IMG/VR virus record: IMGVR_UViG_3300035698_023263
Location: 1 to 46,100 of that record
Strand: one strand, 5' to 3'
DNA: 46,100 nucleotides
Source: a virus
Position 1 is the first letter of the stretch. Each line of letters starts with the position of its first letter. Positions 42,017-46,100 of this stretch are shown here, one piece after another. Under the pieces are notes generated by a model. That model worked only from the letters and a program-made list of their open reading frames with translations. It was not told where the DNA came from and did no database searches. Both the position numbers and the translations under genes were made by a program.

Positions 42017-44884
42017 TTACAAGACTATTTCGTGCGTATGGCCCAGGCCGCTATCCTGCACAACCCCATTAATAATGGCATGATTGTGGTTTTCTGACAC
42101 AGAAGTTGTCTGATTTATCTGTGATAATACTAAAATGTTTTCATTTACTACGATGTCATGGGTATGCGGTATTGGTACATTGTTCGGGCCGCGCAATAGG
42201 CCAACAGTGGTGGTGACCGTCTGTGGCAATAAAGCCGTGTTCCGAATGGCCCGCCATTGATAAATCGGACTCGTCTTGCGCACCCTCTGTACTGAGAAAT
42301 GCTGATTTCCTATTTGATTGAATAACAGCTTGTTTCTGGTAACGTCCAGAACCTCATATCTATATTCTTCAGTTCCGTCTGGATTAAATCTAATTAAAAC
42401 ATCCCTATCTCTAATTGTAGGAATTGGGAGGGTCCAACACTGGAATACGGCATGGTTTTCCAGGCCGGCCTCTTCCATCTTCAGGTCTTCGGCTGCTGGG
42501 GTGAACCTGACCATAATGCGACCATCAGATCGTCTGGGCCAGAAGTATTGTTCGTACCCGGTGATAAAGCCTGTGCCGTAGCAGTTATGCGTAACGACTC
42601 CTTGAACAACATATGTATTTCTCTCTTCCACCTCTAAGTTATAGACCTTTCCTACAAATTTTTTGCGCTCAACCTTTCTGATTTTTGATAGTTTTTGATC
42701 GTTAAATTTCCAACGATTTTTACGGTTTGATCTTACAAAATCTGTTTCGGCCCAATTTGTAAAATATACTTTCTTTCTTTCGTTCCCGGCCGGAGTAGGG
42801 ATGGTATTTATAAATTGTCTGATAAGAGGTAGCTCACCGAGACGGTGCAATATTTCAGATATTTGCAACGATAATATCTCTGATGTTTGACCGATTTCGT
42901 TACAAGATTTATCTCCATCACCGTCGTAAATACCCCGCAATAAAGCTTGCATCTTTTTACTAGGAAGATACATTAACTCTTCTGGTATATGTTTATTTTC
43001 ACACCCTCGGCCCAGCCACTGTGAAAACCACTTACATAACGTTGTGCCATTTACATTAATATTTATACCATTACCATTATCACTACACTGCCGCACTTTG
43101 CTATTGTATCCATACTTTGCAAATAATGATGTTACTCTATTCGCAAAATCTTGTTCTTTTTTATGTAAAGCAAAGTTTATACACCTCCGGCCAGTCGATC
43201 CTTCTGCTAAATACAAGCCCACCATCCATAAAAATTCTTCGTCAACAACAAACTTATCTTTGCCATTTCTGTTAGAGCTGTGCTCTACAAATGACGGAAT
43301 AACAATCTCTGATACATCTCTGATTTGCTCTGGCCATTTTGCAACCAACCAATCTTTATCGGTTATTGTGTCGGCGGCATCCCATTTTAATACATGTCCG
43401 ACGTTTTCTAGTCTAAAATTATTGACCGCCTTAGTGGCCTTTTCCTGTGTGTCAAACGTGCCTATGGCTTTCCGGACTTTATTCAAACTAACTCTAGCGT
43501 GCCATCTGCCACTTGGTAGCTGCCTAACATCAATATTATGTGCAAAGCCATCCCCACGTTTGATAAAATTGTCGCACTTTGGTCCACACCCAATTTCTAC
43601 ATCATGGTCTCCTCTCATTACCAAATGCGGATGCTCAGGAGTAGACCATATAGTATCCGTAGATACAGATGGAGTTATTCCCACCAATTCCCCATCAAAA
43701 TCATTCTCAAAAGTCGTCAAGACCCTCTGGAACGACCCATCATCAGCAAGCACATAATCCCCAACCTTAATTTCTCTAATGGGACGATAACCGCTTGACG
43801 TCCTAACTAAAGTGTCTCCCGTGAAACATTGATGGCACCTGTGGTCCGGGTACTCCTGATTTGGCTCATAGCACGAACACGTAATGCCCTTCCACAACCT
43901 CCGCATTAGCATTACCTCATCGCCAGTTCCCATCTGCTCCAATAAAAACTCCTGACGCCTCTTAGCCTGGTCACTTATAGAGATATTCCTAATCTGACGA
44001 TTTACTCCCAAGTATCCGTCGGCACAAAAGTGCTCGCCGCCAATATAGGTGTCTTGACACATCCCATTGAAAAACAACTTGGGATCGGTGCGGTGCCAAC
44101 CAGAAAAATCATAAGGTGGGAAATCAATATTGTCTTCGTCTTGATTTCCTAAATCTGTTGTTAGGACGCCCTCTTTGTTGGCTATCCGATACCCATCTGA
44201 AACCGTGTAGATGTTGTGGTCATAATTGAAAGTGTTTTGTTCCTGGATGATGTTTAGGTTCTGCTCTTCTAGGCCGTACCAGAACCTTACCACCGGGCTC
44301 AAATACTCGTACCCATCGTACCCATCTGTAGTGTGCTCCCTGGCTTCCGTATTCAAAAAGCCACGCTCGCCAGTAAACAAAAGGTTGTTTGGTATATCTT
44401 TGGATATATACCGGATCAGCTCATATCCTACTTTAATCACGCCCATGGCTGGGAAGATATCTGCATCCGTTATTGGAATGGTGGTATCCTCATCTGTGAT
44501 GTCACTGGCCAATAGCGTCTCAGGATAGACGTGTAAATAGCCGTCGGTCTGAGCTGGGTCCGTCGGCAACAGTTCAATGTTGTACCATGAAGGGTCATAC
44601 TGGGTGGCCCTGATAACGAAATAATAAGTATCGCCTGGGATGAAGTCAATAACATTCGCCAATAAAGTATCGTTGTTGGTCGAAATGAACTTGGGCCCCT
44701 CGGCTATGGCATTGCCCTGAGTGGAGGAATAATAAATGTTATATGCCATGCTCATGGACGCAGGCTCAGCATAAGCCTGGTGCCAGACCATACTGATAGT
44801 ATACCCGTCACCGACGGCATTAATTACCTTAATTCCATTCTGACTCCATGGAAAATAAAAAGGTACACTAGGATTGCATGCCAT
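42017..44884 (-). CDS. Virion-type protein interrupted by an intein
   Basis: The host protein (540 residues after splicing) has an N-terminal beta domain (SQNGIKVINAVGDGYTISMV, YNIYYSSTQGNA), a middle beta region and a zinc-finger-like segment. The segment runs C336-x-C338, then C350, and the last ligand is the first cysteine after the intein (C768), as in CHQ/CYGTGF. Its C-terminal half after splicing has VRFTPAAEDLKMEEAGLENH and a beta-rich end with SENHNHAIINGVVQDSG. The ATG at 44884 has GGAG 5 bases upstream; a TTG at 44899 is less likely. The gene starts inside the metallopeptidase-like gene by 17 bases. Zinc segments of this CYGTG type occur in phage structural proteins. The exact virion role is unknown. 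Confidence 0.87.
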   Translation of the reverse strand: MACNPSVPFYFPWSQNGIKVINAVGDGYTISMVWHQAYAEPASMSMAYNIYYSSTQGNAIAEGPKFISTNNDTLLANVIDFIPGDTYYFVIRATQYDPSWYNIELLPTDPAQTDGYLHVYPETLLASDITDEDTTIPITDADIFPAMGVIKVGYELIRYISKDIPNNLLFTGERGFLNTEAREHTTDGYDGYEYLSPVVRFWYGLEEQNLNIIQEQNTFNYDHNIYTVSDGYRIANKEGVLTTDLGNQDEDNIDFPPYDFSGWHRTDPKLFFNGMCQDTYIGGEHFCADGYLGVNRQIRNISISDQAKRRQEFLLEQMGTGDEVMLMRRLWKGITCSCYEPNQEYPDHRCHQCFTGDTLVRTSSGYRPIREIKVGDYVLADDGSFQRVLTTFENDFDGELVGITPSVSTDTIWSTPEHPHLVMRGDHDVEIGCGPKCDNFIKRGDGFAHNIDVRQLPSGRWHARVSLNKVRKAIGTFDTQEKATKAVNNFRLENVGHVLKWDAADTITDKDWLVAKWPEQIRDVSEIVIPSFVEHSSNRNGKDKFVVDEEFLWMVGLYLAEGSTGRRCINFALHKKEQDFANRVTSLFAKYGYNSKVRQCSDNGNGININVNGTTLCKWFSQWLGRGCENKHIPEELMYLPSKKMQALLRGIYDGDGDKSCNEIGQTSEILSLQISEILHRLGELPLIRQFINTIPTPAGNERKKVYFTNWAETDFVRSNRKNRWKFNDQKLSKIRKVERKKFVGKVYNLEVEERNTYVVQGVVTHNCYGTGFITGYEQYFWPRRSDGRIMVRFTPAAEDLKMEEAGLENHAVFQCWTLPIPTIRDRDVLIRFNPDGTEEYRYEVLDVTRNKLLFNQIGNQHFSVQRVRKTSPIYQWRAIRNTALLPQTVTTTVGLLRGPNNVPIPHTHDIVVNENILVLSQINQTTSVSENHNHAIINGVVQDSGLGHTHEIVL
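42584..43828 (-). mobile_element. Intein (415 aa) with LAGLIDADG domain and AP2-like insert
   Basis: All splice elements are intact: Cys1 in CFTGDTLVRTSSG (block A), T63-P-E-H66 (block B), a block F ending in VVTHN415, and Cys as the first extein residue. The homing endonuclease is a two-motif LAGLIDADG type: WMVGLYLAEG (about 201-210) and LLRGIYDGDG (about 296-305), each with an acidic catalytic residue. Between block B and the endonuclease lies a region of about 45 residues (102-145), with LPSGRWHARVSL and IGTFDTQEKATKAV, which fits an AP2-like DNA-binding domain. A CGPKC motif (81-85) precedes it. The endonuclease would cut intein-free alleles and spread by recombination. Confidence 0.93.
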
Positions 44885-45368
44885 TCCTGCTCCGCGCAAT
44901 GTTTAATAGTTCGTCTTTCTTGTTCTCCCTATCTTTCCCTTTAGCGTCATGATGATCCAATACTTGGTCAATGTAGTCTTCGGCATCTTCTTCACTATAT
45001 TCGTCAGATATGTATGCCGTCTGGTTTTGAAACCCTTCTTGCTCAAATTCGTTCGCTAAATAGTCACCATCATTAGAGCTTTTGGTAGGCTTATCACCAT
45101 AACATTGCTGCAAATAATGGGATATCTCATGGATTAAATAATGATCATTATCCATGTCCTCATTACCTTTATCCAATAATTTATACCCTAAATATATTAT
45201 TCCATGATCCGTTCTGGCTGAAACATCTAGGTCAGCAAAAGCCACTGGTATTAAGTCCAGTATATCCTCTTCCGCATCCCAGTCCTCAAGCATCTCTTGC
45301 AATACTTCATGGCCCCGGATTTTTTTCTTTAATCTATTAATATATTTAAGCAAAAGCGTTCTGTTCAT
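44868..45368 (-). CDS. Small HExxH metallopeptidase-like protein
   Basis: The 166-residue protein has HEISH at residues 80-84 and a Gln-Gln following, plus an acidic segment (E107, E109, E111) about 25 residues later that could supply the third zinc ligand; this is the gluzincin pattern seen in small phage and plasmid peptidases. A basic N-terminal helix and an acidic region (about 25-50) come before. The substrate is unknown. Possible roles include processing of a phage or host protein; capsid-protease families look different. It may be translated after the 45.4-45.8 kb genes. It overlaps the intein-containing gene by 17 bases. Confidence 0.74.
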   Translation of the reverse strand: MNRTLLLKYINRLKKKIRGHEVLQEMLEDWDAEEDILDLIPVAFADLDVSARTDHGIIYLGYKLLDKGNEDMDNDHYLIHEISHYLQQCYGDKPTKSSNDGDYLANEFEQEGFQNQTAYISDEYSEEDAEDYIDQVLDHHDAKGKDRENKKDELLNIARSRNGMQS

Positions 45369-45431: not shown

Positions 45432-45755
45432 CTACCCCTTTATATTTATCAATTCTGGGGCCTCAGAACACTGTTCTTCCTTGGTTGCACAGACATTTGG
45501 CGTCCTAATTTCTTCGCAAGACAGAGGGAAAGCTTTAAATCTGAAATATGGCAAACCACAACGCTTGCAGTGGCTTACTGACCAGTGGCCGGCGTTTTTA
45601 TACAAATGACCCAGCATGCCAGTGTACACAAATTCGCTATGCCAATCATGTGACTTCTTCTTTTCTCCAAAGTCTCTTTCTTTTACGATCTTTTCTTTCT
45701 TCCTACGGATGCGTAACTGGCCTAGCTTCTTGGCCTGTTCTGGTGTCATTGCCAT
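45432..45755 (-). CDS. Small Cys/His-rich protein, zinc-binding candidate
   Basis: This 107-residue protein has a basic N-terminus (LRIRRKKEKIVKERDFGEKK), then HCKRCGLPYFRF and, after a gap, SCEEIRTPNVCATKEEQCSE. The CxxC followed by further cysteines suggests one zinc-stabilised finger. The ATG has GAGAGGT upstream, within the stop region of the preceding gene, so the two are likely cotranslated. No match to a named family is evident by eye. DNA or RNA binding is possible. Confidence 0.7.
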   Translation of the reverse strand: MAMTPEQAKKLGQLRIRRKKEKIVKERDFGEKKKSHDWHSEFVYTGMLGHLYKNAGHWSVSHCKRCGLPYFRFKAFPLSCEEIRTPNVCATKEEQCSEAPELINIKG

Positions 45756-45758
45756 AAA

Positions 45759-46076
45759 TTACCTCTCTGGTAGACTATATATCGGTTTTGTGCCCAGCTT
45801 TCTATTGTGTCTATCCTCTCTATGTTGGCCAGCACAAAAATAACAAAAGACCCCAACATACTCTTTTTTAGGGTAGCCCCAAGATATTTTCTTATTTAAA
45901 ACTATCGTTTTCCTCCGAAGCTCCCACCTAGTTCCTTTTACCACAACATGCTCTTTTATCGGCCGGTGAGACCACTTTGCCGTTCTTCCTTTTTTGCGTT
46001 GTTGCCAAATTTCTCCATGAGCTAAACTATTGCGGCTACCACAATTAAAACAAATTATATAGCCTGTCTTTTTCAT
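45759..46076 (-). CDS. Small zinc-ribbon-like protein, possibly 5'-incomplete
   Basis: The product has IICFNCGSRN near the N-terminus and FCYFCAGQHREDRHNRK near the C-terminus, two CxxC pairs that could form one zinc ribbon, with a basic Arg/Lys-rich middle (QQRKKGRTAKW, RWELRRKTIVL). The ATG at 46076 is taken as start, with GGGA 4 bases before. The frame is open up to the right window edge (GTG at 46085 and codons before it), so the true start may lie outside. A role in nucleic acid binding is possible but not established. Confidence 0.65.
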   Translation of the reverse strand: MKKTGYIICFNCGSRNSLAHGEIWQQRKKGRTAKWSHRPIKEHVVVKGTRWELRRKTIVLNKKISWGYPKKEYVGVFCYFCAGQHREDRHNRKLGTKPIYSLPER

Positions 46077-46100
46077 TAATCCCACTTTCTTGGCATAGTC

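Follow-up and report, generated by a model that had tools for sequence, protein, structure and literature searches.

An intein at the codon of a putative zinc-ligand cysteine in a probable neck stopper gene of a large phage

The window, the 46,100-nucleotide stretch of viral DNA analyzed here (IMG/VR virus record IMGVR_UViG_3300035698_023263), contains a gene in which an apparent intein directly precedes a cysteine of a possible metal-binding segment. This locus raises the question of which protein is interrupted, whether the insertion is an intein, and how one position could serve both as a splicing nucleophile and as a structural zinc ligand. A first-pass annotation, made from the DNA letters, had placed an intein on a zinc-ligand cysteine of a phage tail-region protein; its coordinates and residue numbers proved exact on re-derivation. 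The features of the gene are as follows.

42017..44884, minus strand: precursor gene, stopper-like neck protein with an in-frame intein, 955 aa from the ATG at 44884 (an alternative upstream TTG at 44899 in the same frame would give 960 aa).
43829..44884, minus strand: N-extein, 352 aa, with a fibronectin type III (FN3)-like N-terminus, a central part and the first portion of the stopper domain, including three of the four cysteines of the putative zinc loop (AlphaFold2 model of the relative L048, pLDDT 85).
44603..44827, minus strand: FN3-like domain, limits approximate (Pfam fn3 E = 0.0099 in the relative L033; profile match to neogenin FN3, E = 2.3e-4).
43829..43879, minus strand: zinc-loop segment CSC-x11-CHQ with the putative ligands C336, C338 and C350 (spacing equal to that of the zinc-bound gp97 loop).
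42584..43828, minus strand: intein, 415 aa, a Hint domain with an inserted endonuclease; Cys1, T63-P-E-H66 and His414-Asn415, followed by Cys+1.
43613..43828, minus strand: N-terminal part of Hint, blocks A and B (Pfam Hint_2 and PT-HINT; alignment of five inteins).
43394..43513, minus strand: AP2-like DNA-binding segment between Hint and LAGLIDADG (Pfam AP2, PHROG).
42779..43237, minus strand: LAGLIDADG homing endonuclease domain (LYLAEG ... IYDGDG; intein E209 and D304; Pfam LAGLIDADG_3).
42584..42688, minus strand: C-terminal part of Hint, blocks F and G, ending in VVTHN (Pfam Intein_splicing).
42581..42583, minus strand: codon of C768, the +1 nucleophile of the intein and fourth cysteine of the putative zinc loop.
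42020..42583, minus strand: C-extein, 188 aa, with the remaining stopper domain and a histidine-pair tail.
42020..42180, minus strand: C-terminal tail containing three HxH pairs, whose six histidines are invariant in 68 of 68 relatives.

Numbered from the ATG at 44884, the N-extein cysteines are C336, C338 and C350, Cys1 of the intein is residue 353, and the +1 cysteine is residue 768. The N-extein ends in ...TCSCYEPNQEYPDHRCHQ and the C-extein starts with CYGTGF...; removal of the 415-aa intein from the 955-aa precursor leaves 540 aa, in which the junction reads CSC-x11-CHQC. C768 completes the CxC-x11-CxxC segment, and the +1 cysteine is its last cysteine, as had been proposed. The start codon of intein-free relatives is the methionine equivalent to the precursor ATG. 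The adjoining gene (44868-45368, minus strand) encodes a small protein that may be a metalloprotease; it carries an HExxH sequence (HEISH) and has weak Pfam matches only. Two consecutive small CxxC-rich open reading frames that resemble zinc ribbons follow at 45432-45755 and 45759-46085 (minus strand).

All residues of a class 1 intein were found in the window copy (C1, T63-P-E-H66, H414, N415 and C+1), and, as in class 1 inteins, the insertion is in-frame and has intein-free alleles at the same site. An alignment of five divergent inteins with 39-58% mutual identity displayed Cys1, the block B histidine, the His-Asn pair and Cys+1 in every copy. Pfam Hint_2 matched the window intein above its cut-off (2.3e-6); Intein_splicing stayed under the cut-off (4e-6 to 4e-7) and was above it in the relatives L128 and L129. 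LAGLIDADG_3 also scored above its cut-off (6.8e-6), with two dodecapeptide motifs carrying acidic residues; these acids, E209 and D304, are conserved in all five inteins. For the segment between the two domains, Pfam AP2 gave E-values of 4.4e-5 (whole intein L138), 6.6e-4 (L166) and 0.0033 (window sub-segment), and PHROG matched the AP2 part of an HNH endonuclease (E = 5e-5). All AP2 scores lie under the gathering cut-off, and therefore we name the segment AP2-like only. The GC content is 39.6% in the window intein and 46% in the exteins. A chance resemblance is excluded, because intein-free relatives are collinear across the junction and related inteins occupy the same codon in four other contigs. 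Together with the splicing residues and the two domain matches above cut-off, this sequence evidence confirmed the initial reading: 42584-43828 (minus strand) encodes a class-1-type intein with a predicted LAGLIDADG endonuclease and an AP2-like segment. A His and a Cys pair just ahead of the AP2-like segment (intein residues 75-85, ~43574-43606, minus strand) are likewise shared by the five inteins and may have a metal or redox role.

The spliced extein, used as the query in close-relative and tblastn searches, gave no match. Relatives were instead reached via the neighboring sheath gene, which pointed to a group of large phages whose contigs reach ~460 kb. Twelve contigs of this group contained collinear intein-free relatives, and broader searches brought the stopper family of the window (family A) to ~80 distinct members; a scan of 395 Bacteroidota genomes returned only the already known contig. 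A second, very divergent jumbo-phage stopper family (family B) comprised ~28 loci and was linked to family A by hhalign (98.1%, E = 7e-14). The intein-free homologs that the first-pass annotation had suggested seeking thus exist; they are collinear over the junction, where the cysteine is present in almost all of them. A subset of family A stoppers (L097, L099-L100, L102-L107, L109-L110, L112, L114, L116, L118-L122, L124-L127) is ~120-140 aa longer, and the long stoppers L045 and L043 (the latter the same protein as L109) have a single extra segment near residue 170.

The 68-row alignment of family A contained 62 rows with all four loop cysteines and 6 with none, the latter forming one clade in the family A tree. 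Among relatives added later, five more lacked all four and two more had the complete set; a partial set was seen in no row. This all-or-none pattern, found in every relative checked, indicates that the four cysteines act as one functional unit. Intein-free homologs without the junction cysteine had been named as evidence that would speak against the reading, and 11 such sequences were in fact found. Since each of them lost all four cysteines together, they favor a shared metal site, and the zinc reading survives.

What this unit binds is suggested by gp97 of Staphylococcus phage 812, in which a tetra-cysteine loop (CPC-x11-CPRC) coordinates zinc in the crystal structure (PMC12886913). The window loop and the gp97 loop align without gaps and have identical CxC-x11-CxxC spacing, and family B aligned likewise (hhalign against gp97, 88.6%, E = 2.7e-6). 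In hhalign controls, the link to gp97 was lost when the cysteines were masked and also when the rest was shuffled; this short link therefore needs both the cysteines and their context. Because the spacing equals that of the zinc-bound loop and relatives have all four cysteines or none, the tetra-cysteine segment is very probably a zinc site, as had been claimed initially. The motif has been described as limited to Herelleviridae and present in no other phage group (PMC12886913). The motif in family A and family B relatives, together with gp97-like Cys-rich loops in L133 (phage G gp175), L132 (Arash gp234) and L134 (Vibrio phage D69), indicates otherwise; judged by sequence, the zinc tetra-cysteine stopper loop probably occurs in at least two jumbo-phage families beyond Herelleviridae. 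With its three C-terminal HxH pairs, the stopper-like protein may hold a second metal site besides the loop.

Next to a putative zinc site, the position of the intein could bear on splicing control. In the initial view, splicing was required for the zinc site to form. This does not follow, because Cys1 occupies the future place of Cys+1: the precursor already has CxC-x11-CxxC with Cys1 at the ligand position, and the same was found in all five inteins. It could thus be proposed that C336, C338, C350 and Cys1 bind zinc in the precursor and lock the Cys1 thiol, which would delay splicing until the zinc is released or the fold changes; metal or redox state would then time stopper maturation. The exact placement of Cys1 in all five copies fits this proposal, and zinc on the catalytic cysteine blocks splicing of Mycobacterium smegmatis DnaB and Cryptococcus neoformans Prp8 (PMC7360933, PMC6805012), which makes zinc- or redox-sensitive splicing plausible here. 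However, any intein with Cys1 and Cys+1 placed before a ligand cysteine would look the same, no extra conserved feature that requires regulation was seen, and a gate protein that is needed in time should select for fast splicing. We therefore regard zinc-gated splicing as unlikely, although it is the strongest of the alternatives. A bolder version, in which loop and intein share one metal, the zinc or redox state of the infected cell sets gate maturation and this control explains why distant jumbo phages retain the site, appears more doubtful still.

The identity of the host protein was addressed by fold comparison, based on the AlphaFold2 model of the intein-free relative L048 (68 alignment rows); a first model from 13 rows, of low quality (pLDDT 52), was excluded. 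Foldseek against the PDB placed neck chains of phage 812 first (8q01_S, E = 1.2e-4, prob 1.00; 8qkh_A), the former being gp97, the stopper of this phage. The next matches were necks of Pam3, phiKZ and phiCD508, XkdH of PBSX, and the lambda and SaPI1 necks; 8hdr_A reached a TMt of 0.66. Whole-protein TM-scores were low, because the match is confined to the stopper domain, and the Foldseek table does not indicate which residues were aligned. The top viral match was phage G gp175 (E = 1e-10). Profile comparisons, through the stopper domain, also connected the protein to gp175 and to Salmonella phage Arash gp234. In phage G, gp175 is encoded within a run of head and neck genes, directly ahead of the tail chaperones and the tape measure; the window gene lies ~12 kb away from the tail sheath gene. 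Searches of PHROG and Pfam returned weak matches to "virion structural protein" and left the host otherwise unnamed. A match to phrog_26446 (anaerobic ribonucleotide reductase) was rejected as host homology, as it lies mainly over the intein. From the modeled fold, the host is probably a phage neck stopper (head closure) protein rather than a tail protein, and the initial assignment to the tail region was not borne out. Several probable stoppers are annotated as unknown, structural, hypothetical or minor tail proteins, namely, L133 (phage G gp175), L132 (Arash gp234), L134 (Vibrio phage D69) and a protein of Tunturiibacter phage Tunturi_5 (H29).

An FN3 N-terminus and C-terminal HxH pairs are frequent in tail and fiber proteins, one relative is annotated as "minor tail protein," and the sequence link to gp97 is short. 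The host could on these grounds be another virion protein (tail, baseplate or fiber) whose likeness to the stopper loop arose by convergence on a short cysteine motif. We consider this improbable, given that the best Foldseek matches are neck stoppers of several unrelated phages and that the stopper-domain profile leads to Arash gp234 and to gp175 with its place among head and neck genes. For the probable stopper, it is more improbable again that the four conserved cysteines, which would also fit an iron-sulfur cluster or disulfides, form no zinc site: their spacing and context are identical to those of the crystallographic gp97 zinc site (PMC12886913), the loop belongs to a virion structural protein, and Pfam searches returned no Fe-S family.

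The intein was next compared across phages. Four other phage contigs carry a related intein, 39-50% identical, at the same codon before the fourth cysteine. Besides the window, family A contains L128 (JAIXLO010000160.1), on a 383-kb phage-like contig with a sheath of the same type that was binned in a Chitinophagales MAG, and L129, on an 84.6-kb contig. The family B carriers are L138, on a 301-kb contig and found with three inteins as queries, and L166. The intein-containing stopper and the sheath of L128 in the Chitinophagales MAG may reflect a phage binned with a possible Bacteroidota host. An Enterococcus phage intein (H1) was discarded as a same-site case; it resides in a different protein, near a ribonucleotide reductase gene.

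In the tree of family A, intein-bearing members are interspersed with intein-free ones. Between families A and B, the inteins are 39-50% identical and the stopper domains only 23-29%, whereas within families this order is reversed (inteins 40-58%, stopper domains 54-70%). Inteins that are more alike than the stopper domains across families must have diverged after the families split, which indicates transfer from lineage to lineage. This conclusion rests on the identity contrast, because the small intein tree does not settle the matter: one clade per host family was not rejected (p-AU 0.149, five inteins). Strict vertical inheritance since the split of the stopper families was likewise rejected on the identity contrast, with the tree leaving it unsettled, and an independent origin of the five inteins was rejected in view of 39-58% identity over the full length at a single site. 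These comparisons indicate a transfer of the intein between phage lineages at a single codon, as expected from homing.

Taken together, we think it likely that the window carries a mobile homing intein at the codon of the fourth zinc ligand of a jumbo-phage stopper, that the precursor splices to a zinc-binding 540-aa protein, and that homing has taken the intein across two stopper families. Splicing, zinc binding, endonuclease activity and the place in the virion are the predicted parts of this scheme. After folding of the precursor, Cys1 would begin the N-S acyl shift, the N-extein would pass to Cys+1, and Asn415 would cyclize. The joined 540-aa stopper would retain CSC-x11-CHQC, bind zinc as in phage 812 gp97 and take part in the ring by which the DNA channel is sealed once packaging is complete. 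In gp97, tail attachment pushes the loop outwards, and the loop shifts together with the core during opening of the gating loops (PMC12886913). At the DNA level, the LAGLIDADG part, with the AP2-like segment, would cut intein-free stopper genes at the conserved codon, and the intein would be copied in; cutting at a conserved codon would keep it at one site while it crosses two very different stopper families. It is very improbable that the Hint domain, as an autoprocessing domain or a decayed intein, cleaves without splicing and leaves a two-chain or truncated stopper, since, despite the Intein_splicing score of the window copy under the curated cut-off, the frames are open, close relatives score above it, the window copy has Cys1, the block B Thr/His, His-Asn and Cys+1, and all of these except the threonine are kept in the five divergent copies. 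An ordinary homing intein that self-splices and restores the zinc loop thus remains the most likely reading by its sequence.

If so, such a phage would need protein splicing for every one of its mature stopper subunits, and a virion gate protein and a metal-ligand cysteine would join the short list of intein sites. The locus would also provide a natural system that pits the splicing nucleophile against a structural zinc ligand at a single position, with the zinc site supplied by the extein. The literature surveyed yielded no report of an intein in stopper or head-closure proteins or at a zinc ligand, which is weak evidence of absence, as subscription literature was thinly covered. The host had at first been called unusual. 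It is less so than stated, because inteins are known in portal proteins of mycobacteriophage cluster C1 (PMC5050341) and of Eggerthella phage LE2-3; the site is indeed unusual. The chemistry appears to be standard for inteins, and the record of transfer to this site is unusually clean.

Among known systems, phage 812 gp97 (Herelleviridae; 8Q01, 8QKH) shares the stopper fold and the CxC-x11-CxxC spacing, with zinc seen in its crystal (PMC12886913); unlike the window protein, it is 292 aa long, has an external beta-sandwich and lacks the intein, the FN3 N-terminus and the HxH tail. The portal inteins of cluster C1 and LE2-3 also reside in a phage neck-complex protein, but in another host protein and at another site, and the LE2-3 intein is 23.6% identical and lies outside a zinc loop as far as is known. 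M. smegmatis DnaBi1 and C. neoformans Prp8 offer a parallel for zinc on the catalytic cysteine as a possible splicing block; their zinc ligands come from the intein, whereas here three would come from the zinc loop of the N-extein. Phage LAGLIDADG inteins (Staphylococcus phage 6ec DNA polymerase, ribonucleotide reductase, terminase) show the same combination of Hint and LAGLIDADG, a patchy distribution and insertion at a highly conserved residue. The window intein differs from them in the AP2-like segment between Hint and LAGLIDADG and in a host protein that is no enzyme.
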